Part shown: one piece after another, positions 2,722-17,703 of the stretch
Numbering within the stretch: position 1 is the first letter of the stretch
How the letters are laid out: each line of letters begins with the position of its first letter
Origin: Desulfobacula sp.
GTDB lineage: Bacteria > Desulfobacterota > Desulfobacteria > Desulfobacterales > Desulfobacteraceae
DNA length: 64,000 bases
Direction: 5' to 3'
Assembly (NCBI RefSeq): GCF_014237455.1
Contig: NZ_JABZFL010000074.1
Span: forward strand, 37,723-101,722
Program-made: the position numbers and the translations under genes
Notes under the pieces: generated by a model
What the model was told of the DNA's origin: nothing
The model's input: the letters and a program-made list of their open reading frames with translations, nothing else
Database searches by the model: none

Positions 2722-3435
2722 GTGAAATACAAAGGATTTCAATTGCCGACATTAATCAGTGGAATATTGATTCAGCGGTATAAACGGTTTCTTGCCGATA
2801 TAGAGCTTGAAACAGGTGAAAAGGTAACAGCCCATTGTCCAAACTCAGGTTCTATGAAAGGGTGCGCAATGCCAGGATCACAGGTCTGGCTGTCAGAGAG
2901 CGATAACCCCAAAAGAAAGTATAAATATACCTGGGAATTGATTAAGGTGCCGGGAACAATGATCGGTATCAATACCCAGGTGCCCAATAAACTGGTGAAA
3001 CAATCCATTGAAAATGGTCTGATAAAAGAGTTGTCCGGCTACACGCGCGTGAAAGCCGAGGTGAAAACAAGCAGCCATACAAGGCTTGATCTGTTACTGG
3101 AAAATGAGGTTGAAGAAAAGTGCTATGTGGAGATAAAAAACTGCACTCTGGCAGAAGAAGGAACGGCCATGTTTCCGGATGCAGTGACAACAAGGGGGCA
3201 AAAGCATCTTGACGAACTGGACCGCCTTGTATCTCTCGGTCACAGGGGGGTCATTTTTTTTCTGATTCAGCGTATGGATGCAAAAGCCTTTAAACCGGCG
3301 GCTATGATTGATAAAGTCTATGCCGAAAAATTGAGGAACGTTGTGAAAAATGGTGTTAAGGTTATTGTAAGGGATACGGTCATCAGTACGCAGATGATCA
3401 GGTTGGGAAATACCGTGCCTGTGGATCTGGATTGA
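2722..3435 (+). CDS. sfsA: SfsA family protein
   Basis: SfsA (sugar fermentation stimulation protein A) has an N-terminal OB-like fold and a C-terminal nuclease-like fold; its cellular role is still unclear. The 237-aa length is typical. Family signatures are present: HCPNSGSMKGC near residue 33, YVEIKNCTL (the E-x-K nuclease-like core) and FPDAVTTRGQKHL. The GTG at 2722 is chosen because AGGAAG sits five bases upstream; the two nearby ATGs are out of frame. It is probably monocistronic, with the nifU promoter starting about 50 bases after its stop. Confidence 0.93.
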   Translation: MKYKGFQLPTLISGILIQRYKRFLADIELETGEKVTAHCPNSGSMKGCAMPGSQVWLSESDNPKRKYKYTWELIKVPGTMIGINTQVPNKLVKQSIENGLIKELSGYTRVKAEVKTSSHTRLDLLLENEVEEKCYVEIKNCTLAEEGTAMFPDAVTTRGQKHLDELDRLVSLGHRGVIFFLIQRMDAKAFKPAAMIDKVYAEKLRNVVKNGVKVIVRDTVISTQMIRLGNTVPVDLD

Positions 3436-6713: not shown

Positions 6714-6908
6714 TAACCTCAATAACCCCAACTTTTTAAATATTAAAAACAACCTTGTCTTTTTAAATCAATACCTGAAAGTATAAAAGTATTTATTGAA
6801 AGTGGCAGCATTTGATTGGAATATCAGATTATCTAACGCTACTCTATTTTAATTCTGATGTCAGGCTTGTGTTAGCAACAGATATTGTGGTCTGGTTCTG
6901 ATTCAGAA

Positions 6909-6938
6909 AGCCCGGGACTTCTATTAGTCCTGGCTTTT
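6909..6938 (+). terminator. Probable terminator of the nifUS-hdrCB operon
   Basis: AGCCCGGGACT pairs with AGTCCTGGCT around a short loop and is followed by TTTT. It is about 195 bases after the hdrB stop. The stem has a bulge and the T-run is short, so strength is uncertain. Confidence 0.55.
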
Positions 6939-6964
6939 AAATTCAGAGACGTTGGAAAACCATA

Positions 6965-7024
6965 ATAGACAAAGTCCGCACCATATCAGAATGGATATTC
7001 CTTACTTTTTGTCTCCAATTAAAA
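6965..7024. repeat. Left copy of a diverged ~60 bp direct repeat
   Basis: ATAGACAAAGTC-n2-CACCAT-n-TCAGAATG followed after a gap by CTCCAAT recurs at 14193-14250 in the same orientation with scattered mismatches. The two copies bracket the restriction-modification and XRE/ImmA block. They could be ends of a lost insertion sequence or island boundaries. The rest of the 6714-7200 gap holds the operon terminator and nothing else recognisable. Confidence 0.6.
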
Positions 7025-7200
7025 TTGAATAGAATCTTGATTGATTTGATGATGTCCTCTCCCAAATAATGGATGATCAGTCTTGTAGTTTGATAAATTA
7101 TGAGATAGTTTACTGCTATCGGTTGTGAAAAAACATAGTCATGGAAGGTTTGTAATTATCCCTTTTCCAAAGAACTCTCCTGACTTAATTGAGGTGAAAT

Positions 7201-10200
7201 ATGGCAGTTGATATTCTTGGACCAAAACAAGCTCTTAACAAAGCCTTTTTAAAAATAAAGCCTCTTAGAAGCGATATTGAAAAATTTAAAACAAATGTTA
7301 AGATCCTGCTGGATCAAGTCCATGAGAGCGAGTCGGAAGAATTTCATAAAAATCTTATTTCTGATTTTCTTAAAATCACCTATTACCACCCCGATTTTTT
7401 TATCAATACCAAGGACAGAAAAGACCTTGTAATTCATAACGGGAAAGATGCCAGAGCCAGTGCCGGGGTTATAATCGAGGCAAAGAATCCATCCAACAGG
7501 CAAGAGATGGCCCAGAAAGGCAAGCTTAACACCAAAGCACTTCAGGAACTTATTTTTTATTATCTACAGGAGAGGTTTAAGGAAAAGAACATCGAAATAA
7601 AGCACCTTATCATAACCAATGTTTATGAATGGTTTATCTTTGATGCCAATATTTTTGAAAAGCTTATTTCAGCGGACAAGGGGCTGTTAAAAAAATTCAA
7701 GTCATTTGATGGAGGCAGCCTTTCAGGCAGGACCACTGATTTTTTTTATTCCGAGATAGCAAAGCCGTTTATCGATTCCGTCCAAAATCAAATCAGCTTT
7801 ACTTATTTTAACTTAAAGGAGTATGAAAAAGCGCTTAGAAACAGTGACAAAAAAGATGATAATAAGTTCATTGCACTTTTTAAACTTTTTTCTCCTCAGC
7901 ATTTATTAAAACTTCCTTTCAAAAACGACAATAACAGCCTTGACCGGTCTTTTTATTCAGAACTGCTTCATATTATCGGACTCACTGAAATAAAAAAAAC
8001 CGGCAAAAAACTGATACAGAGGGAAGAGCAATCAAACCGCAGTCAAGGAGCATTAATTGAAAGTGCCATTGTACAATTAGATACAATGGGGAAAATTTAC
8101 AGATTACAAACGCCTTATAAATATGGCGAGTCTTTTCAGGAAAAACTTTTTAATGTCGCACTTGAACTGTCCATCACATGGATCAACAGAGTCCTTTTCC
8201 TTAAATTGCTTGAAGCCCAGATAATAAATTATCATAACGGCAACAAAGAATACGCCTTTATGACCATTGAAAAAATTAAGGATTATGATGATCTCAATAC
8301 CCTGTTTTTCAGTGTGCTAGCCAGAAGGCCAAACGAAAGAAATGAGGATGTAAAGAATCAATTTGGAAAAGTCCCTTATCTTAACAGCTCCCTTTTTGAG
8401 CCGACTGAGTTAGAGCAGAGAACGATTTCAATCAGCAATCTAAGGGATGATAAAAAATTATCAATTGTTTCTTCTACGATATTAAAAGACCGAAAAGGGA
8501 AAAAGAAAAAAGGCGAAATAACAGCAATTGAATATCTTTTCCAATTTCTGGACGCTTATGATTTCAGCAGCGAAGGAGCTGAGAAAATCCAGGAAGACAA
8601 TAAGGCTCTTATCAATGCCTCTGTTCTGGGGCTTATCTTTGAGAAAATAAATGGTTACAAGGACGGATCTTTTTTTACCCCTGGTTTTATCACCATGTAT
8701 ATGTGCAAAGACACGCTGAGAAAGGCCGTTATTCAAAAATTTAATCGTGTCAAAAATTGGAATTGTTCGTCATTTGAAGATCTTAGAGAAGATTTGCATG
8801 AGTATATAAAAATCCACCCTGAAGGCAGGAAAACGCCAAGGAAAGAGGCAAATGAAATTATCAACAGCATAAAGATCTGCGACCCGGCTGTCGGCTCCGG
8901 CCACTTTCTTGTTTCTGCCTTAAATGAACTGATCGCCATCAAATATGACCTGGGGATTTTTCAGGACAGAGATGGAAAAAAAATCACTGAATATTCCGTT
9001 ACGGTTGTGAATGATGAACTCATTGTTACAAGAGACAGTGATGATGAAAACCTGTTTTTTGAATACAGACCGTCAAACAAGGAATCTCAGTGTATCCAGG
9101 AAACCCTTTTTCATGAAAAGCAGGGATTAATAGAAAATTGCCTTTTTGGAGTGGATATAAATTCCAACTCTGTCAAGATCTGTCGGCTGCGACTCTGGAT
9201 CGAACTGTTAAAAAGCGCTTACTATACTGCGGAAAGCAGGTTTTCCGAACTTGAAACCCTCCCTAATATCGATATCAATATTAAATGCGGTAATTCCCTT
9301 ATCAGCAGATATCCCCTTGATTCGGATTTGAAGGAAGCTCTGAAAAAAAGCAAGTTGAGTATCAATGCATACAAAAAGGCTGTTCATACCTACCAAAACG
9401 CTGAAAGCAAAGATCAGAAAAGGGAAATGGAGGCCCTGATCGCAGAAATTAAATCCAACTTTCAAAGCGAAATCACAAAAAATGATCCCAGAGTAAAAAG
9501 GCTCGCAAGACTCAAAGGAGCGCAGATAGACCTTGTTAAGCAATTGGAATTGTTTGAAAGAACAAAAGCTGAAGAAAAGGAGAGAAAGAAGAAACTTGAA
9601 AAACTTGAAAAAGAAATCGCTCAGATTGAAAATACCATAGAAGAAATCAAAAGCAACCGGATATACGAAAATGCCTTTGAATGGCGTTTTGAATTTCCGG
9701 AAGTTCTCAATGATAATGGTGAATTTGAAGGGTTTGATGTGGTCGTTGGCAACCCGCCATATATCAGACAGGAAGCGATCAAGAATCAAAAACCCTATCT
9801 CAAATCAAATTTCATCACTTACACAGGTACTTCGGATTTGTACGTTTTCTTTGTTGAGCGGGGGTTTCAGATTTTAACAAAAACAGGTTGTTTTTGTTAT
9901 ATCATGCCGAATAAATGGATGCAGGCGGGATATGGGAAGCCTCTCAGAGCTTTTTTCCTTGAAAACAGATTGGAAAAAATAATCGATTTCGGTGATTTGC
10001 AGGTTTTTGAAGAGGCAACCACCTACCCCTGCATCCTGTCGGCAATTAACAAACCCTGTGGAGATGATGCGGCATTTGATTCCGCTCCTGTAAAGACTCT
10101 TTTATTTAAAGATGGATTTGAAAATTATGTAAAATCGATAAACAATCAAATGAAAATTTGTGAACTTAGCGATGCAACATGGATTGTCAGCTCAGGGCCG

Positions 10201-11016
10201 GATCAAAAACTGCTTTCTAAGTTAAACAGTTACTGTGTTTCATTAGCTGACTATGTGGATGGAAAGTCATTTAGAGGTGTTGTAACTGGATTAACAGAGG
10301 CATTTATCATAGGAGAGGGCATAAAAGAAAACCTGTTGTCAACAGATCCCAAAAACTTAGATTTATTAAAGCCGGTATTGAGAGGCAGGACAATAAAAAA
10401 ATGGTACACAAATCAGGATAATCTTTGGCTGATTGGCACCTTTCCTGTTTTAGATATCAATATTGATAAGTATCCAGCCATAAAAGATTATTTTTTTACT
10501 TTTGGTGAAAAAAGACTTGAACAATCAGGTTCAAAAGGGAGTCGAAAAAAAACAGGAAACAAATGGTTTGAAATCCAGGATAATATAGCGTATTGGCGGG
10601 AATTTGAAAAAAACAAAATTATGTATCAAGTTTTTCAGGTCAAGCCATGCTTCATTTATGACGATCAAGGATTATATTGTAACAATTCTATGTGGATAAT
10701 CCCAAAAGACGACAAAGTCCTTTTGGCAATTTTGAACTCTAAAATCGGCTGGTGGCTTATTTCTCAATATTGCACTGCCATTCAAAACGGGTATCAGCTT
10801 ATCTGGCAATATTTCGGCCGGATTCCCATCCCGAAAATCCTTGATGAACAAAAAGAATTGAGAGAAAGAATAACCGATCTTGCTGATCGAATTATCGAAG
10901 CAAAAAAAGGCAACCCGGGAGCAGATACCACTTCAGCGGAAAACAAAATTGATCAGCTTGTTTATCAACTTTATGGCCTTGATGATGAAGAGATTCAACT
11001 TATTGAAGGAAAATAA
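7201..11016 (+). CDS. Type IIG restriction-modification enzyme (nuclease-methyltransferase fusion)
   Basis: A 1271-residue single-chain enzyme. The N-terminal region has a PD-(D/E)xK-type nuclease core: D75 in KDLVIHNG and E93-x-K95 in IIEAKNPSN. The central amino-methyltransferase domain has the AdoMet motif DPAVGSGHFL near residue 561 and the catalytic NPPY near 850, marking an N6-adenine methylase of the Eco57I/TaqI class. A charged coiled-coil insert (about 730-820) lies between them. The C-terminal part resembles TaqI-type target-recognition domains (PVLRGRTIKKWY). GAGGTG upstream supports the ATG. Cleavage and methylation therefore share one specificity domain, so no separate methylase is needed. 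BREX PglX is an alternative fold relative, but no other BREX gene is present. Confidence 0.88.
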   Translation: MAVDILGPKQALNKAFLKIKPLRSDIEKFKTNVKILLDQVHESESEEFHKNLISDFLKITYYHPDFFINTKDRKDLVIHNGKDARASAGVIIEAKNPSNRQEMAQKGKLNTKALQELIFYYLQERFKEKNIEIKHLIITNVYEWFIFDANIFEKLISADKGLLKKFKSFDGGSLSGRTTDFFYSEIAKPFIDSVQNQISFTYFNLKEYEKALRNSDKKDDNKFIALFKLFSPQHLLKLPFKNDNNSLDRSFYSELLHIIGLTEIKKTGKKLIQREEQSNRSQGALIESAIVQLDTMGKIYRLQTPYKYGESFQEKLFNVALELSITWINRVLFLKLLEAQIINYHNGNKEYAFMTIEKIKDYDDLNTLFFSVLARRPNERNEDVKNQFGKVPYLNSSLFEPTELEQRTISISNLRDDKKLSIVSSTILKDRKGKKKKGEITAIEYLFQFLDAYDFSSEGAEKIQEDNKALINASVLGLIFEKINGYKDGSFFTPGFITMYMCKDTLRKAVIQKFNRVKNWNCSSFEDLREDLHEYIKIHPEGRKTPRKEANEIINSIKICDPAVGSGHFLVSALNELIAIKYDLGIFQDRDGKKITEYSVTVVNDELIVTRDSDDENLFFEYRPSNKESQCIQETLFHEKQGLIENCLFGVDINSNSVKICRLRLWIELLKSAYYTAESRFSELETLPNIDINIKCGNSLISRYPLDSDLKEALKKSKLSINAYKKAVHTYQNAESKDQKREMEALIAEIKSNFQSEITKNDPRVKRLARLKGAQIDLVKQLELFERTKAEEKERKKKLEKLEKEIAQIENTIEEIKSNRIYENAFEWRFEFPEVLNDNGEFEGFDVVVGNPPYIRQEAIKNQKPYLKSNFITYTGTSDLYVFFVERGFQILTKTGCFCYIMPNKWMQAGYGKPLRAFFLENRLEKIIDFGDLQVFEEATTYPCILSAINKPCGDDAAFDSAPVKTLLFKDGFENYVKSINNQMKICELSDATWIVSSGPDQKLLSKLNSYCVSLADYVDGKSFRGVVTGLTEAFIIGEGIKENLLSTDPKNLDLLKPVLRGRTIKKWYTNQDNLWLIGTFPVLDINIDKYPAIKDYFFTFGEKRLEQSGSKGSRKKTGNKWFEIQDNIAYWREFEKNKIMYQVFQVKPCFIYDDQGLYCNNSMWIIPKDDKVLLAILNSKIGWWLISQYCTAIQNGYQLIWQYFGRIPIPKILDEQKELRERITDLADRIIEAKKGNPGADTTSAENKIDQLVYQLYGLDDEEIQLIEGK

Positions 11017-11083
11017 TTTCAACCTTGGTCATAAATTCCAAAATATCATCAGAGCTTATAGCTGAAAGATTAATATCTCCGAA

Positions 11084-11152
11084 ATGGGCCTATTTTCGAT
11101 TATAACAGCAGCGCTTGTAGGCATTCTAATCTTTGTATTGGTTGATTTATAA
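11084..11152 (+). CDS. Possible 22-residue membrane peptide
   Basis: An ATG opens a frame for MGLFSIITAALVGILIFVLVDL, a single hydrophobic helix with almost no other content. Such peptides occur as type I toxins or small membrane regulators. There is no convincing ribosome site, and the stretch from the R-M stop to the xre promoter is AT-rich, so a chance ORF is quite possible. No antisense RNA promoter was identified. Confidence 0.2.
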   Translation: MGLFSIITAALVGILIFVLVDL

Positions 11153-11258
11153 AGGGAAAGAGGAAAACGAAGTTATAGAAATTTAAGAGCTGAAGGATCA
11201 AAATTAAATTTACGCAAATATAGGAGTATTTATCTTCTCTTTTTTTGGCGTAAAAACC

Positions 11259-11287
11259 TTGACAAGCTTAATTTTAATAACTATATT
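11259..11287 (+). promoter_or_regulatory. Sigma-70 promoter of the XRE-ImmA operon
   Basis: TTGACA and TATATT are separated by exactly 17 bases, the best -35/-10 pair seen in the window. It lies about 60 bases upstream of the XRE start codon. Confidence 0.75.
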
Positions 11288-11297
11288 GATTTTATGA

Positions 11298-11315
11298 TAT
11301 ACGCTAATGTGTATA
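11298..11315. promoter_or_regulatory. Candidate operator of the XRE regulator
   Basis: TATAC and GTATA form an inverted repeat with an eight-base centre, starting ten bases after the -10 box and so over the transcription start. The position fits autorepression by the XRE protein it precedes. The assignment is inference. Confidence 0.4.
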
Positions 11316-11347
11316 AATTAATAAATAAAAACAAAAAGGAGGCTCTA

Positions 11348-11710
11348 ATGATTGATTTTGGCAGGTCATTAAAAAAAGCAAGGCAAGCCAAAAGGATCAC
11401 GCTTAGAAAACTTGGAGAACATGTAGATCTGTCGGTGGGATATTTGTCTGATATTGAACACAACAGGAAAAATCCACCAAAGCTTGATTTGGTCCAGAAA
11501 ATTGAAGAATTTTTAGGAATTCTGGATGGCAGTCTTGTAGGATTGGCATCGGTAATTAAAAGAAAGATGCCAAAAGATCTATCGAGCAATATAATGCTAA
11601 AGCCCAACCTATCAGGTGCTTTGTTAAGAGTTGATGAAGATATCGATGCTGATCAGGTTGATGAATTTATGAATTTTGTAAAACAACTTGAGCGAAAAAG
11701 GAGACAATAA
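11348..11710 (+). CDS. XRE-family transcriptional regulator
   Basis: A 120-aa protein with an N-terminal lambda-repressor-like helix-turn-helix (RKLGEHVDLSVGYLSDIEHNR) and a helical C-terminus. The track start at 11294 is replaced by ATG 11348, which has AAGGAGG with five-base spacing; the longer version would place coding sequence over the operator. The next gene is an ImmA-like peptidase, starting immediately after its stop. In mobile elements such as ICEBs1, the peptidase cleaves its XRE partner to release repression. Here the pair follows a restriction-modification gene, so it may control that locus or be an independent stress-response module. Confidence 0.88.
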   Translation: MIDFGRSLKKARQAKRITLRKLGEHVDLSVGYLSDIEHNRKNPPKLDLVQKIEEFLGILDGSLVGLASVIKRKMPKDLSSNIMLKPNLSGALLRVDEDIDADQVDEFMNFVKQLERKRRQ

Positions 11711-11711
11711 T

Positions 11712-12308
11712 TTGGGAAACATGGTTCCTATTGCTAAACCTAAAAGCGGAGCTGGAATTGATTTGGATGCTCAAATGCTAATCATGAGGATTCAACCAGA
11801 TGCTCTAAAGAGACCATCTTCTTTTGATATTGAATCATTTTTTGATCTGGATTTAAAAAAGCTTACGGGAATAGATCCCGATTATCGCGAGTTGCCAGTA
11901 GGAATTCATGGATTTACAGATTCAGATAAAAAAGAATGTGTTATTTCAGCAAAACTTATGGAGGGAAATTCCAAGCCAGATATATACTTCGCGAGATCAA
12001 CAATGGCACATGAAATAGGTCATGCAATAATACATGTCCCAGAATTCAGATTAAAGAAAGCTATATTGAGATCTATACACGATGATGATCACGCTTCTTT
12101 GAAAATGTATAGACAAAGCGATATTCCTTTATTTAAAAATCCGGAATGGCAGGCATGGAGATATGCAGGTGCACTGCTAATGCCTGCTATTACTTTTAAA
12201 AAACTTGTTAATGATGGTGTTAGTGCAAGAGAAATGGCAAATATATTTGAAGTCAATCCTGCTTTTGTTCAGACGAGAGCCAGGGCATTAAAAATTGAGC
12301 TTAAATAA
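11712..12308 (+). CDS. ImmA/IrrE-type metallopeptidase
   Basis: Zinc peptidase with the signature MAHEIGHAIIH (HExxH). The domain follows an N-terminal segment with little similarity to anything I know, and a C-terminal helical region (NDGVSAREMANIFEVNPAFV) resembles the winged-helix tail of this family. The track start (TTG 11688) lies inside the XRE gene. TTG 11712 has GGAG eight bases upstream and ATG 11721 is the fallback. Likely target: the XRE regulator encoded just before it. The pair ends at a strong terminator, so it is a self-contained operon. Confidence 0.85.
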   Translation: MGNMVPIAKPKSGAGIDLDAQMLIMRIQPDALKRPSSFDIESFFDLDLKKLTGIDPDYRELPVGIHGFTDSDKKECVISAKLMEGNSKPDIYFARSTMAHEIGHAIIHVPEFRLKKAILRSIHDDDHASLKMYRQSDIPLFKNPEWQAWRYAGALLMPAITFKKLVNDGVSAREMANIFEVNPAFVQTRARALKIELK

Positions 12309-12310
12309 AA

Positions 12311-12338
12311 AAAGAGCATTTGGCCATGCTCTTTTTTT
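12311..12338 (+). terminator. Rho-independent terminator of the XRE-ImmA operon
   Basis: AGAGCA-n8-TGCTCT is preceded by an A-run and followed by seven Ts. It is close enough to the immA stop to leave no doubt about which operon it ends. Confidence 0.9.
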
Positions 12339-12390
12339 ATATTTGCAGCTTTAATATTATCCGGCGTGAGGACTGGAAATATCAAAAATA

Positions 12391-12414
12391 ATTTTCAACG
12401 ATTCAGTTGAAAAT
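12391..12414. promoter_or_regulatory. Perfect inverted repeat of unknown role
   Basis: ATTTTCAAC and GTTGAAAAT are perfect nine-base arms around a six-base centre. There is no T-run, so it is unlikely to be a terminator. It lies about 105 bases upstream of the small gene at 12519 and could be a protein-binding site. Confidence 0.35.
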
Positions 12415-12518
12415 GGTTTGCTGCCCATTGTGTATTTAAATTACAATGTCCGTAAAGTCATTATTTACACTCTGAGACCAATTTGTCAATAAAAAATCCT
12501 CGATAAGGAATTTAGATT

Positions 12519-12656
12519 ATGGATCATAAATCTAAAGGCCGTCGGATTATTGGGTTCATCTTCCGAGCTTGGAGATATACCAAGGATGGAACTCAAATCT
12601 GGGCTAAAGACTATGGCCTCAAAGCTTGGAAAATTCCAATCTATGAAAAGGCATAG
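12519..12656 (+). CDS. Small hypothetical protein, 45 aa
   Basis: Missing from the track because of its length. ATG 12519 follows AAGGA. The product is basic and aromatic: MDHKSKGRRIIGFIFRAW, then a K-D-G-T-x-I-W-A-K-D-Y-G-x-K-A segment and the end IPIYEKA. The layout, basic N-terminus plus a G-x3-A-K-D-Y-G-x-K-A-x-x-I-P strand pair, matches my recollection of short conserved proteobacterial proteins of unknown role. Tight patterning and the lack of low complexity argue for a true gene. It sits alone between the XRE/ImmA operon and the lipoprotein operon. Confidence 0.6.
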   Translation: MDHKSKGRRIIGFIFRAWRYTKDGTQIWAKDYGLKAWKIPIYEKA

Positions 12657-12750
12657 TTAACCTGAATCAGTGCCTACGGCACCATGTTTTGGTCTCGGCA
12701 TGGAACAGAACAGAGACCACTTCTATTAATTCTTTATTATGAGGTAAAAA

Positions 12751-13704
12751 ATGATTGACTTTGTAACAGTAAATGAATTGAAAAACGGTATTAAATTTAA
12801 ATCACTGCTCATCATTCTCCTTCTTCTAACATTTTGTTTATCTGGATGTGTTGGGCTTCTGACTGAGTCTCAAGTAACAGAAATTAAAAAATTCTCTTCC
12901 GCTTCAAACTCATACAGTGATTATCCAGGAGCAGTTATTAATTCTCATGCAGATCTGAGTTTTCATAACCAGCTTACAAACGCATCCAGTTCAGTGGATG
13001 GGAAAAATGCCTTTGGCTTCATTGAAAAAGGTATTGAAAAACACAAAAGGCTTACAGGGTTGGAAAAAAGAACAGACAATGCATGCGGAATATTGCGCTC
13101 CTATTCAGCTATCCTTGATAAACTTTCTTCAGACACCTACACAGCAGATACACAGGCGAGTTTGGAAAAATTGGGATCGCAGCTGGATCATTCAATCCAA
13201 GAATACAATGAAATTTCGAAATCTTCATTGACAACTTTTGGTAGTTTGATTGCAGCCACTCTGAGAGGTGTTAGTTCGATATACATTAAAAACAGACAGC
13301 ACAAGGCGATTAAAATGGCAGTTACAGAAGCTGACCCTGCGATTGAAGAAATCATGAACGCCATAACAGAGCTTCTGGAAATGTATGCCGGTGAAAATAG
13401 CCTGGACATTATACAAGCGGAAAAAGACGATTTGCAGACGTGGTACGAAACTTCAGGATATAAACAGCCTTTGTCCACGGCCATATGGGTGGCTGAAGAA
13501 CTTGAAAGAATTGAATCCGTCCTAATTTTAGTTGAAAAATCGAAAAATGCGGCTGTAAATCTGCAAAAAGCCCATAAGATTTTGATAACAAAGATAGAAA
13601 AAAAGACGGATTTAAAAGATACCATTGAGATTATTGAAACCTTGGTTGAGGAAGTTGAGGCTGCCAAAAATTTTAAAGAAAAACTTGATAAAAAGAATTC
13701 CTGA
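12751..13704 (+). CDS. Putative lipoprotein with long helical domain
   Basis: A 317-aa protein. The N-terminal hydrophobic segment ends in a lipobox (LSGC, cysteine 33), so it should be lipid-anchored. The remainder is nearly all predicted helix, with heptad-like stretches and a charged C-terminus (VEEVEAAKNFKEKLDKK). GAGGT upstream supports the ATG. A 110-aa coiled-coil partner follows 15 bases later and the pair has its own terminator. I do not recognise either family. A membrane-anchored sensor or effector with a small helical partner inside an accessory block is compatible with a defence or toxin-immunity role, but nothing in the sequence proves it. Confidence 0.7.
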   Translation: MIDFVTVNELKNGIKFKSLLIILLLLTFCLSGCVGLLTESQVTEIKKFSSASNSYSDYPGAVINSHADLSFHNQLTNASSSVDGKNAFGFIEKGIEKHKRLTGLEKRTDNACGILRSYSAILDKLSSDTYTADTQASLEKLGSQLDHSIQEYNEISKSSLTTFGSLIAATLRGVSSIYIKNRQHKAIKMAVTEADPAIEEIMNAITELLEMYAGENSLDIIQAEKDDLQTWYETSGYKQPLSTAIWVAEELERIESVLILVEKSKNAAVNLQKAHKILITKIEKKTDLKDTIEIIETLVEEVEAAKNFKEKLDKKNS

Positions 13705-13719
13705 TAGGAGGGTATTATA

Positions 13720-14052
13720 ATGGTAAATAAAGAAATTAAAACGGTTTTGGATGATATAAGGTCTTTGAAAAAAAAGGTTCAGATTCGGAAAGCCAATGCC
13801 GACCACCCTGCAAAAAAAGAGTTGGAAGATGTTTACATTATCCTCGACGACCTCGAAGATGACCTGACATTCAGCGAGTTGGAAAAGAAAGTTGAGAATA
13901 TTGAAAGATCTTCAAAAAAACTAAAATCGGTCATTAAAAAGGCCAAAGAAAAGTCGGATGATATAGATGACATCGTTCGAAAAATAGACAAAATTACTGA
14001 TGTCCTTGATAAGATAGCTGACATAGCTGGGAAAGGTGCTTCTATTGTATAG
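13720..14052 (+). CDS. Small coiled-coil protein paired with the lipoprotein
   Basis: A 110-aa, highly charged, almost purely helical protein with heptad repeats throughout (for example LEKKVENIERSSKKL and VRKIDKITDVLDKIADIAG). It has no signal peptide, so it should be cytoplasmic unless the amphipathic C-terminus binds membrane. AGGAGGG upstream supports the ATG. The 15-base gap to the lipoprotein gene and the terminator right after it define a two-gene operon. The pairing suggests that the products act together across or at the membrane, which is inference. Confidence 0.68.
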   Translation: MVNKEIKTVLDDIRSLKKKVQIRKANADHPAKKELEDVYIILDDLEDDLTFSELEKKVENIERSSKKLKSVIKKAKEKSDDIDDIVRKIDKITDVLDKIADIAGKGASIV

Positions 14053-14066
14053 AAATTTAATCTGAC

Positions 14067-14095
14067 AAATGGGAGATTTTCGGATCTCCCATTTT
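14067..14095 (+). terminator. Rho-independent terminator of the lipoprotein operon
   Basis: AAATGGGAGA pairs with TCTCCCATTT around an eight-base loop and ends in TTTT. Confidence 0.85.
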
Positions 14096-14192
14096 CACAC
14101 CGGGGCAAAATGTGAATGAGTGATGAAATCGTTAAGCGTTGACTACTGGCTAAAATCTGGATCAATAAATTATTAAAAAAAACAACGGATGT

Positions 14193-14250
14193 ATAGACAA
14201 AGTCAACACCATTTCAGAATGAGTATCGGTATATTTTTTCTCCAATAAAG
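14193..14250. repeat. Right copy of the diverged ~60 bp direct repeat
   Basis: Matches 6965-7024: ATAGACAAAGTC, CACCAT, TCAGAATG and CTCCAAT occur in the same order and spacing. It follows the lipoprotein operon terminator, so the two copies enclose the whole accessory block. Confidence 0.6.
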
Positions 14251-14431
14251 GTTATTTTGACATTTTTTCCGCAATAAATTATATTTTCACAAAAGTTGAT
14301 TTGCTGAAATGCTTCGAAGGTCATTAAAAATGTTGATACGGAATACTTAAACCATGTTTTGAATTTGTATGGTCATTCGAATTTATAGAATATGCGGGGA
14401 TGTGCACCGAGATTCCAATTTGATGATATTA

Positions 14432-14461
14432 TTGACAACTTCTTCATTCCTAAACTATAGT
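14432..14461 (+). promoter_or_regulatory. Promoter of the HEPN/radical-SAM cassette
   Basis: TTGACA and TATAGT are 18 bases apart, about 110 bases upstream of the HEPN gene. A small inverted repeat (CCCAAT/ATTGGG) lies just after it in the likely leader. The rest of 14251-14571 shows nothing else. Confidence 0.6.
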
Positions 14462-14571
14462 CAACCCAATTAAAAGGATTGGGGATATAAATGCAGTTCC
14501 TATAACCCAGCCTTGCTCACTCTGCATTGTTTGTTGTGGAGTAAAGACAGAGAACCTGGAGATATAAAAAG

Positions 14572-15579
14572 ATGTCTAACCCCATTGATATACGCACAAA
14601 TGCAATGCTTTGCTTGAATTTTGGTTATGGAAGTTTAATTCGAGCAAAGACAACAATCGACTACAGGAATTCGATAGTATCAGTGCATAATGGAGTTGAG
14701 TTGCTTATGAAAATATATCTAATGGAAAAAAACAGAGCATTGATATACCAAAAAATAAATTACACATCTCTTTTAATTGACAGAACTGATACAGTGAATA
14801 AAATTACCATAGATTCAAACACTATAAACTATGCAGAATGCCAAACTAGACTGTCTAATTTTTCCAAATTACCTGAACAATATTCAGTACATCTAAAGAA
14901 GCTAAACCATTTTAGGAATAAGTGCGTTCATTTCGAATACCAGATTAGCCACAGAAAGTTAAAGATCTTACTGATTGTTCATATTTTTGAATATATAAGT
15001 GTACTGATAAAAGAGATGGGTCTCGAAATCGATTTGTTTCTCAAGGCAGGAATTGTAGCCTCATTAAGCAGGTTCAAAGAGTCGATAGACAGCCAAACAA
15101 AAAGTAGTTTTTACGAGAAAGTCGAGATTGCAAAAAATCACTATTTCGAAGATCTTACACCTCAAGAGCGAGACCAGAAGAAAAACACCGAAGATTATAT
15201 TGTAAGAAGTATAGATAAAATTGTGGCCTGCCCATCATGCCAACAAAAAGCCATACTAAAGAGAAAAGTACAACGGCAAAGGGAACGGGGTGTTGAGTTC
15301 ATAATCACAAAAAGTAGATTGATCCTTGAAGAACTGGCTTGCCACTACTGTGGCTTAAATATAACTGAATACGAAGAACTAATATTTAAGTTTGCGATAG
15401 AAGAAGTATCTCTACCCGATAAAAGGCTGCGCTTAAGCTACCCAAATGATGATTATCCATATGATGATTGCCCAAATGATGATTATCCATATGATGATTG
15501 CCCAGATGATGATTGCCCAGATGATGATTGCCCAGATGATGATTGCCCAGATGATTGCCCAGATGATTGCCCAAAATAA
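14572..15579 (+). CDS. HEPN-like/zinc-ribbon protein with a Cys-Pro-Asp repeat tail
   Basis: Residues 1-150 look like an all-helical HEPN domain. RNKCVH at 115-120 fits the R-[polar]-x3-H ribonuclease motif of that superfamily, and the preceding helix (IVSVHNGVELLMKIYLM) is typical. CPSC (220-223) and CHYC (257-260) form a zinc ribbon. Residues 291-335 are a repeat tail of PNDDY, PYDDC, PDDDC and PDDC units containing seven cysteines. GGAG lies upstream of the ATG. A radical SAM/SPASM gene starts 36 bases after the stop, so the tail resembles a modification substrate carried by a large folded leader. Alternatively the tail may simply bind metal. Confidence 0.75.
   Translation: MSNPIDIRTNAMLCLNFGYGSLIRAKTTIDYRNSIVSVHNGVELLMKIYLMEKNRALIYQKINYTSLLIDRTDTVNKITIDSNTINYAECQTRLSNFSKLPEQYSVHLKKLNHFRNKCVHFEYQISHRKLKILLIVHIFEYISVLIKEMGLEIDLFLKAGIVASLSRFKESIDSQTKSSFYEKVEIAKNHYFEDLTPQERDQKKNTEDYIVRSIDKIVACPSCQQKAILKRKVQRQRERGVEFIITKSRLILEELACHYCGLNITEYEELIFKFAIEEVSLPDKRLRLSYPNDDYPYDDCPNDDYPYDDCPDDDCPDDDCPDDDCPDDCPDDCPK
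15442..15570 (+). repeat. In-frame 15/12-bp tandem repeat encoding the Cys-Pro-Asp tail
   Basis: Seven 15-base units (CCA-n-AT-GAT-GAT-T-n-n type) are followed by two 12-base units that lack one GAT. Later units are nearly identical (CCAGATGATGATTGC), which points to recent expansion. Every unit is a multiple of three, so copy-number change alters tail length and not the frame. Confidence 0.95.
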
Positions 15580-15615
15580 TAATGAAAATTTTGAATTCTA
15601 CATGGAGAGTGTTAC

Positions 15616-16500
15616 TTGCCTGCGTACATTGCGCCAACATATAGATGCAACTTGAAATGTGAGCAATGCTACTCCGCCAAGTATGCTTCAGAGTTCCCCT
15701 ATGATTTAGACTGGCCAAACTTCATTGGTGTTTGCAAGTCTCTGATGTGGAGATATAATAGATTTTGCATTATTGGTGGAGAGCCTACTCAATGGAAGTT
15801 TATCAATGAGGCCATCTTAGTATTGAAGAATAAAAATAAGTATGTATCAGTTTTCACCAATGGTATAACACCGTTGGGAGCTTTTCCTAACAGCTTATTT
15901 ATAAACGCTAGTTCGTTCTGGAGTGATACACTACAATCAATTTTTCTAAAAAATCTTCAAAAATATAAGCACAAATCTAGGATAGTCCTTCGTTTTAATA
16001 TTGGAGAAGAATTTACAAAGCTTAACATTGAGGATGCTGTGTCGTTAGCATGCAAGTATGCAAATTCAGTGTCACTATCGTGCCGGTTCCCTGCTAAACC
16101 AATGCCCAATATTGGCAATATTATATATGAACTAGTAACAAAATTGGCATCAAAATCAATCACGACTCGAATATCTAGAGCGACACCACTCTGCATCTTT
16201 AATTCGGAACAAATAAAAATTCTGGTAAAAACAAGCAGATTGAAGGGACATTGTAGTTTACCATCGAATTCTCTTTATATACATCCAGATGGACGAACTA
16301 TACAACCGTGCCCGGAGCTTGATATAAGAGCAGATATCAAAACCCTTGACAATCTTTCCCCAAAAACTTTTTTTAGGAAAGATATAGAATTGAAGAAACG
16401 AAAACGCATTTCATCTTGTTTGAGTTGTAATCTTTTCAAGCATGGCCATTGTTGTGGTGGCTGCCTTGCTTATGATCTAATATCTGATGATATAGAATAG
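15616..16500 (+). CDS. Radical SAM/SPASM-type peptide-modifying enzyme
   Basis: The AdoMet-cleaving [4Fe-4S] site is CNLKCEQC (C11, C15, C18), and GGEPT at 54-58 is the AdoMet-binding turn. The C-terminal domain has SPASM features: GHCSLPSNS, the IHPDGRTIQPC hairpin (C213, C232), then CLSC and HCCGGC (C268-C283) for auxiliary clusters. Such enzymes install thioether or carbon-carbon crosslinks in ribosomal peptides or mature specific proteins. The TTG at 15616 is chosen because GGAG lies eight bases upstream and no ATG is available. Its presumed substrate is the cysteine-rich tail encoded 36 bases upstream. No transporter or protease gene accompanies it. Confidence 0.82.
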   Translation: MPAYIAPTYRCNLKCEQCYSAKYASEFPYDLDWPNFIGVCKSLMWRYNRFCIIGGEPTQWKFINEAILVLKNKNKYVSVFTNGITPLGAFPNSLFINASSFWSDTLQSIFLKNLQKYKHKSRIVLRFNIGEEFTKLNIEDAVSLACKYANSVSLSCRFPAKPMPNIGNIIYELVTKLASKSITTRISRATPLCIFNSEQIKILVKTSRLKGHCSLPSNSLYIHPDGRTIQPCPELDIRADIKTLDNLSPKTFFRKDIELKKRKRISSCLSCNLFKHGHCCGGCLAYDLISDDIE

Positions 16501-16779
16501 TTATCCCTCGCAAAGTCCGGTATTTGGGACAATTTCGAACTCAAACTTTGATTCAACTATATTTCCAGACAAATTCCATTAATTTTATATCCTTGCAGTG
16601 TTCTTTATAAAAAATTTAAGTGAGCAATTCTGGCTATAGTTCTGGCTTTTCAAAATTCAAAAAGTACCCCGGACTATTCCCTGAATGAATTTTTGACAAA
16701 AAATTGTTATTCAGCCATTTTGACAGCCTTGGCATTTCCGCCAAATACCCGAGTCGGGAAATCTGAATCATCCCTCTAT
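16501..16779. other. Intergenic region downstream of the radical SAM gene
   Basis: AT-rich with no ORF supported by a ribosome site. A hairpin with CTGAAT/ATTCAG and AATTTTT/AAAAATT arms (about 16691-16724) separates the convergent radical SAM and cysK genes and may act as a weak bidirectional terminator. Confidence 0.4.
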
Positions 16780-17703
16780 TCAGGATGTTTTAAACAGATC
16801 TGTACTCAGATATCTTTCCCCTGTATCCGGGATGATAAACACAATTGTTTTGCCTTTATTCTCTGGACGAGATGCAATGGTTTTTGCGGCATGAAATGCT
16901 GCACCCGATGAAATACCGCATAGGATTCCTTCCTGTTTGGCAAGATCCCTTGCTCCCTTAAGGGCCTCTTCGTTTTCAATGGTAATGACTTCATCGAGGA
17001 TATCCACGTTAAGATTTTTGGGAATGAAGCCTGCACCAATGCCCTGAATTTTGTGGGGACCCGGAGTTCCGCCGGAAATGACGGGTGAAGCGGCAGGCTC
17101 TACTGCCACGGATTTGAGATCAGGATTTTTTTCTTTTAAAACTTCAGAAACCCCTGTGATGGTGCCGCCGGTGCCCACGCCTGCTACAAAGATATCAACC
17201 TTTCCATGGGTATCATTCCAGATTTCCAATGCAGTGGTTTTTCGATGGATTTCAGGATTGGCTGGATTGGAAAACTGGTCGGGCATAAAGGAATTGGGCG
17301 TTTCTTTAACAATTTTCTTTGCCGCTTCAATGGCACCTTTCATCCCCTTTGACCCTTTGGTCAGAACAAGGGTTGCTCCCAGGTGTTCTAAAAGCTGCCG
17401 TCTTTCAATGCTCATGGTTTCCGGCATGGTTAAAATCAGTTTCAATCCTTTGACCCGGGTCACAAAGGCAAGGGCAATGCCGGTATTGCCACTGGTCGGT
17501 TCAACAATGGTGGATTCCAAATTGATTTTTTTTGTTTCAAGGGCATCCTCAATCATGGCAAGACCGATCCGGTCTTTTACACTGGAGGCCGGGTTAAAAA
17601 ATTCAGGTTTTCCATATAGTTTTGTTCCTGTTTCCCTGCTGGCGGTTTTCAGGTAGACCAAAGGGGTGTTGCCGCAGGCCTTTGTAATGTCAGGCTTGTG
17701 CAT
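16780..17703 (-). CDS. cysK: Cysteine synthase (O-acetylserine sulfhydrylase)
   Basis: Converts O-acetylserine and sulfide to cysteine with PLP. The 307-aa protein has the PLP lysine K43 in SSVKDRIG, the substrate loop EPTSGNTGI and the phosphate-binding GTGGTITG. CysK length and the C-terminal GERYLST segment are standard. It overlaps the upstream cysE gene by 14 bases and is the last gene of the cysteine operon. In a sulfate reducer, sulfide is plentiful, so supply of O-acetylserine by CysE probably limits flux. Confidence 0.95.

Follow-up and report, generated by a model that had tools for sequence, protein, structure and literature searches.

We analysed a window of 64,000 nucleotides from Desulfobacula sp. 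(contig NZ_JABZFL010000074.1, positions 37,723 to 101,722), in which two neighbouring genes encode a predicted HEPN-family ribonuclease with a repetitive Cys-Pro-Asp tail and a short radical SAM enzyme. Table 1 lists their features. Alignment A5 comprises the window HEPN protein and six homologues, from prophage-type contigs; A7 is an alignment of the radical SAM enzyme, and L129 denotes a second, orthologous pair described below.

Table 1. Features of the HEPN-radical SAM locus (window positions) and the evidence for each.
Feature	Position	Strand	Evidence
Low-GC island, about 10 kb, between hdrB and cysK	6718..16783	.	hdrB-cysK spacing in congeners
HEPN/zinc-ribbon protein with Cys-Pro-Asp tail, predicted RNase effector	14572..15579	+	335 aa ORF; 70% identical orthologue body in L129, dN/dS 0.18
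HEPN domain, approximate extent; E43-x3-K47 and R115-N-x3-H120	14599..15030	+	invariant in alignment A5; PADLOC matches
Zinc ribbon CPSC...CHYC (C220, C223, C257, C260)	15229..15351	+	Cys invariant in A5
C-terminal tail, 47 aa, [C/Y]-P-x-D-D units, 7 Cys, 21 Asp, four CX3D motifs	15436..15576	+	counterpart in L129 has 89 aa, 19 Cys
15-bp tandem repeat coding for tail	15441..15567	+	Tandem Repeats Finder
Ribosome binding site GGAGAG of radical SAM gene	15604..15609	+	sequence; TACATGGAGAGTGTTxCTTGCC kept in L129
Radical SAM enzyme, 294 aa, no N-terminal RRE domain	15616..16500	+	Pfam Radical_SAM 8.6e-7; 74% identical orthologue in L129
CNLKCEQC, [4Fe-4S]/SAM motif	15646..15669	+	sequence; Cys invariant in A7
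SPASM-like region, seven auxiliary cysteines	16192..16464	+	invariant in A7

The original prediction assigned to the first gene a HEPN-like domain (RNKCVH), a zinc ribbon and a repeat tail of nine PDDDC-type units with seven cysteines, and all three were borne out. In alignment A5 the Rx4H motif R115-N-K-C-V-H120 and the upstream E43-x3-K47 are invariant, as are all four zinc-ribbon cysteines. These residues meet the criteria of a survey of the HEPN superfamily, namely Rx4-6H with a polar residue after the arginine and an upstream acidic residue within Ex3[KR] (PMC3710099); the same survey lists a HEPN family that overlaps DUF3644 and occurs with fused zinc ribbons and in R-M operons (PMC3710099). 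PADLOC profiles gave weak, partial matches to the window protein (PDC-S64, 6.9e-8; DUF3644, 3e-7; HEC-08, 3.3e-7). HEC-08, DUF3644 and PDC-S64 were matched by all seven members of A5, and PDC-S64 was the sole match of the three for the L129 orthologue at E <= 1e-5. An AlphaFold model of the protein is helical, with a pLDDT (34.5 from the single sequence, 42.6 with seven sequences) too poor for the model to be used. A Foldseek search of this low-confidence model against the PDB and viral models returned zero significant matches, with HepT/SO_3166 entries among the non-significant top hits. The product of gene 1 is a predicted HEPN-family RNase effector; its cutting of RNA is a prediction, and there are no toxicity or phage data.

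The tail reads SYPNDD-YPYDD-CPNDD-YPYDD-CPDDD-CPDDD-CPDDD-CPDD-CPDD-CPK, and its 47 residues include 10 Pro and 5 Tyr in addition to the Asp and Cys counted in Table 1. Nine full units were counted, and the 15-bp repeat noted earlier behind them (8.7 copies, 85% matches) is far beyond chance. In the window this repeat is nearly perfect and uses a single codon per residue (GAT, CCA, TGC). The longer L129 tail is built from CPD, CPDED and CPDGD units, and its DNA repeat is 39 bp long, as against 15 bp in the window; it draws on all four codons for proline and both for cysteine. Among the 18 complete Cys-Pro-Asp units of L129 all differences in the C, P and D codons are silent, non-synonymous ones being confined to the terminal CPK unit. 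CX3[D/E] motifs number 12 in the L129 tail, compared with 4 in the window. The combination of different DNA repeats, the same style of peptide and silent changes indicates that the peptide is what selection keeps.

The second gene had been described as an adjacent SPASM-type radical SAM gene. The ribosome site and the gap of 36 bases were found as described, and the radical SAM motif CNLKCEQC is present; the SPASM type is only inferred, the enzyme having no match to a SPASM profile. The inference is made because seven auxiliary cysteines (C193, C213, C232, C268, C271, C279 and C283) are invariant among three relatives. The gene starts with TTG, and both this start codon and the ribosome site are kept in L129. 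With a two-sequence profile, the nearest solved relatives were SkfB, SuiB, anSME, Tes (tetraether lipid synthase) and PqqE, which are mostly peptide- or protein-modifying SPASM enzymes. Neither an RRE nor a PqqD match was found in the enzyme, whose radical SAM core starts at about residue 5, and no third gene is shared either. Its best PADLOC match is prokaryotic viperin (2.9e-7, radical SAM core only, residues 8-84); a viperin-like function was rejected, the score being 27.5 bits against a cut-off of 180 for the viperin model. A 25%-identical enzyme lies in a RiPP-type locus (L003:453-2769), between a 132-aa precursor-like protein without a Cys/Asp repeat tail and a second radical SAM gene. 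More distant radical SAM relatives are clustered with a PqqD/RRE gene or in three consecutive radical SAM genes (L131:1498-3614 and L130:337-3858); these clusters are probably peptide-modification loci.

The pair lies in an island that also contains a type IIG RM gene, CapH/CapP-like regulators, a lipoprotein and a coiled-coil protein. The proximity to a restriction-modification block noticed earlier holds: the island includes the type IIG RM gene at 7201-11016. Genes for a CapH-like HTH protein and a CapP-like IrrE metallopeptidase, a defence-linked regulator pair, follow the RM gene (11294-12308). Upstream of the HEPN gene, in a gap of 520 bp, a 29-bp sequence occurs twice in tandem (14233-14291). 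A promoter of the pair's own, also part of the original prediction, could not be supported: the number of promoter-like sites (11) is that expected from shuffled sequence (11.4), and the second pair does not share the upstream DNA. In several congeners the convergent hdrB and cysK genes are about 15-30 bp apart with nothing between them, and the gap is a variable insertion site, or hotspot, in the genus (window; L097:4019-17597; L101:13341-16163). The congener L097 carries Type I RM and PtuA/PtuB-like Septu genes at this site; other congeners have metabolic or transport genes there.

The second pair came from a search of 390 genomes of the class, for which a profile was built from the window enzyme and one distant relative. 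It is located in genome G752, from another family of the same order, and has the same gene order and spacing as in the window. Identity to the window is 70% for the HEPN body and 74% for the radical SAM enzyme, and dN/dS is approximately 0.18 for each of the two proteins; judged from these ratios, both proteins are under purifying selection. Homology at the DNA level is confined to window positions 14571-16482 and does not extend beyond the two genes, indicating that the pair is the moving unit and that no third gene travels along. The G752 pair has a GC content of 41%, compared with about 56% for the genome. Two direct copies, 90% identical, of a very stable hairpin of about 80 bp bracket this pair exactly (L134:634-715 and 2976-3053); a sample of 400 kb from other contigs contained no copy of it. 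The copies could be cassette recombination sites, possibly integron attC-like. Neighbouring genes encode type II and III methyltransferases, a type III restriction subunit and a DUF4062 protein, and the genomic context of both pairs is defence-like. A potential concern is that G752 is rated 7% contaminated, so that the host of the contig is uncertain; the independent occurrence of the pair stands either way. The two genes form a mobile cassette present in two distantly related genomes, these being the only two examples found.

An enzyme and its substrate would be predicted to occur together or not at all, and this is the pattern observed. The sole close homologue found, that of L129, keeps both the tail and the adjacent SPASM-type gene, as the original prediction would have it. 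Both are missing from all 11 distant HEPN relatives of the HEC-08/PDC-S64/DUF3644 type that were inspected, drawn from genomes of the order, a Priestia plasmid and viral contigs, with about 1-6 kb of flanking sequence covered. HEPN homologues lacking tail and enzyme would have argued against the proposal; the only ones found are these members of the wider family, and at 16-24% identity they are not counted against the pair. Short peptide patterns for close HEPN relatives revealed no pair in 85,462 species genomes. In the same genomes the tail pattern CP[DN]DxCP[DN]D gave 77 matches, and the flanks fetched for them contained no radical SAM ORF; TSP3-type repeats and short, probably non-coding frames accounted for many of the matches. 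No pair was found in plasmids, phages or viral contigs. The pattern searches say little about prevalence, because the tail pattern cannot match L129 (CPDEDC) and the HEPN peptides narrowly miss it. One match, in G475 (L009), proved spurious, the genes there being an ATPase and others of housekeeping type.

The explanation that best accounts for the whole, to which we assign a probability of about 50% in the absence of any modification, toxicity or phage data, is that of a mobile two-gene module in which the enzyme would cross-link the tail and so control the RNase. Gene 1 would supply a HEPN RNase effector whose disordered, acidic Cys-Pro-Asp/Glu tail serves as a repeat substrate, in effect a RiPP-like core attached to a protein of full size, and gene 2 a short SPASM-type radical SAM enzyme acting on that tail. 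Action of the enzyme on the tail is an inference that we regard as probable; it has strong genetic support and is the firmest part of this reading. The enzyme may join cysteine sulfurs to side-chain carbons of Asp or Glu, each thioether lowering the mass by 2 Da; this linkage, inferred by analogy, could equally turn out otherwise. PapB provides the precedent, forming Cys-Asp/Glu thioethers preferentially in CX3D motifs with spacings of 0-6 tolerated (PMC9413430), and Asp-Cys repeat peptides are encoded beside radical SAM genes (PMC9062424). Modification of the tail would then control the HEPN RNase. In the version we prefer, the cross-linked polyacidic tail would act as a built-in RNA mimic that keeps the RNase off, and infection or loss of enzyme activity would leave freshly made, unmodified toxin active. 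Restraint as the outcome is a tentative inference, again by analogy, here with MntA, whose modification of the toxin HepT, a HEPN protein, blocks it (PMC7641770); this precedent suggests a reason for an effector to have a modifying enzyme of its own. It is because PapB chemistry fits the tail and MntA/HepT the regulation that we favour a restrained RNase with a partner-cross-linked tail. Weighing against this explanation are the count of only two examples, the lack of an RRE domain or gene, unlike in typical thioether maturases, the absence of a Cys/Asp repeat tail from the small protein next to the 25%-identical L003 enzyme, and the low confidence of the AlphaFold model, for which Foldseek gave no significant match.

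The same enzyme and substrate could also operate in the opposite sense, with the enzyme maturing the HEPN protein so that modification of the tail activates or anchors it, as anSME does with sulfatases, instead of restraining a toxin. The co-conservation of tail and enzyme is compatible with such a role, anSME is a SPASM activator of a full-size protein that is among the closest solved relatives, and maturation requires no separate antitoxin logic. Activation is the chief alternative, which we consider possible but rather unlikely: most HEPN relatives work without tail or enzyme, indicating that the HEPN fold needs no activation, and in HepT/MntA modification by the partner silences the HEPN protein.

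The tail might instead bind metal or an Fe-S cluster, or be merely acidic and disordered, and the enzyme's target would then lie elsewhere, in a nucleotide, an RNA or a phage protein. Relatives have extra zinc ribbons at the position of the tail, Cys and Asp are capable of binding metal, and the viperin match of the radical SAM core would suit another target. That match is far under its cut-off, however, and the seven conserved auxiliary cysteines point to the peptide- or protein-modifying SPASM type; together with the joint presence or absence of tail and enzyme, this makes a separate target improbable. Still less can be said for a tail that arose as a neutral slippage expansion beside a gene that is adjacent by chance. 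The nearly perfect window repeat, with one codon per residue, is what a recent expansion would leave, but the L129 repeat differs in length, has mixed codons and shows only synonymous C-P-D changes in its 18 complete units, and in a different genomic context the two genes retain 70-74% identity, with homology that goes no further than the pair. Chance adjacency and slippage alone are largely refuted by the second pair and the synonymous changes in its units.

Control of the RNase through its cross-linked tail would, if true, make the pair the first toxin-antitoxin or defence module controlled by radical chemistry. Known cases of radical SAM cross-linking concern small secreted peptides and cofactors, and the known control of HEPN RNases is through protein or nucleotide partners; a module joining both would add a new way of restraining an immune toxin. 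Such a module would also demonstrate the modification of repeat cores in place on large proteins, and would supply a self-contained pair of tag and enzyme with which cross-linked tails could be made. The pair is directly testable with two genes. A new immune switch, in which an RNase effector carries its own RiPP-like tail and has its activity set by radical-SAM cross-links made by a dedicated partner, is a prospect to which we give somewhat less than even odds.

Among known systems, HepT/MntA (HEPN/MNT, type VII toxin-antitoxin) resembles the pair in being a two-gene module in which the adjacent MntA covalently modifies, and thereby blocks, a HEPN RNase (PMC7641770). Its modifier is a nucleotidyltransferase (GSX10DXD) where the window has a radical SAM enzyme, and its target is the Tyr of RX4HXY, compared with the presumed repeat tail of the window protein. 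The HepT motif itself is not met: RNKCVHFEY in the window and RNAYVHFQY in L129 are both RX4HXXY, with the Tyr one residue further on. The HEC-08/PDC-S64/DUF3644 candidates (EC042_2821-like HEPN family) share the HEPN domain, zinc ribbon and catalytic motifs (PMC3710099), and like the window pair they occur on prophages and beside R-M genes. Unlike it, the members inspected lack both a Cys-Pro-Asp tail and a radical SAM partner. QhpD-type thioether SPASM maturases are grouped with PapB as SPASM-type enzymes. PapA/PapB, which produce the ranthipeptide freyrasin, likewise combine a radical SAM enzyme, SPASM-type as is inferred for the window enzyme, with a Cys/Asp repeat substrate of CX3D spacing (PMC9413430), but the presumed substrate in the window is a tail on a predicted RNase of full size, and the window enzyme has only 294 aa and no RRE, so that the RRE-dependent leader recognition of ranthipeptide systems is not met. 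In SSN cluster 59 a radical SAM gene is accompanied by peptides with as many as six Asp-Cys repeats, in a mobile context with a recombinase (PMC9062424). The repeats there belong to a peptide and not, as in the window, to a HEPN effector. In the His-Xaa-Ser system the HxsA repeat is located at the C-terminus of a longer protein. This repeat motif has been assigned to radical SAM enzymes for maturation (HxsA with HxsB/HxsC; PMC9062424, citing Haft and Basu), which is the likeness to the window pair; the repeat is a different one, two radical SAM enzymes are involved and there is no HEPN domain. Text searches of openly licensed papers found no description of a HEPN-radical SAM pair, which is suggestive and not proof. 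The components are each of a known kind, and as far as can be told their combination is new.
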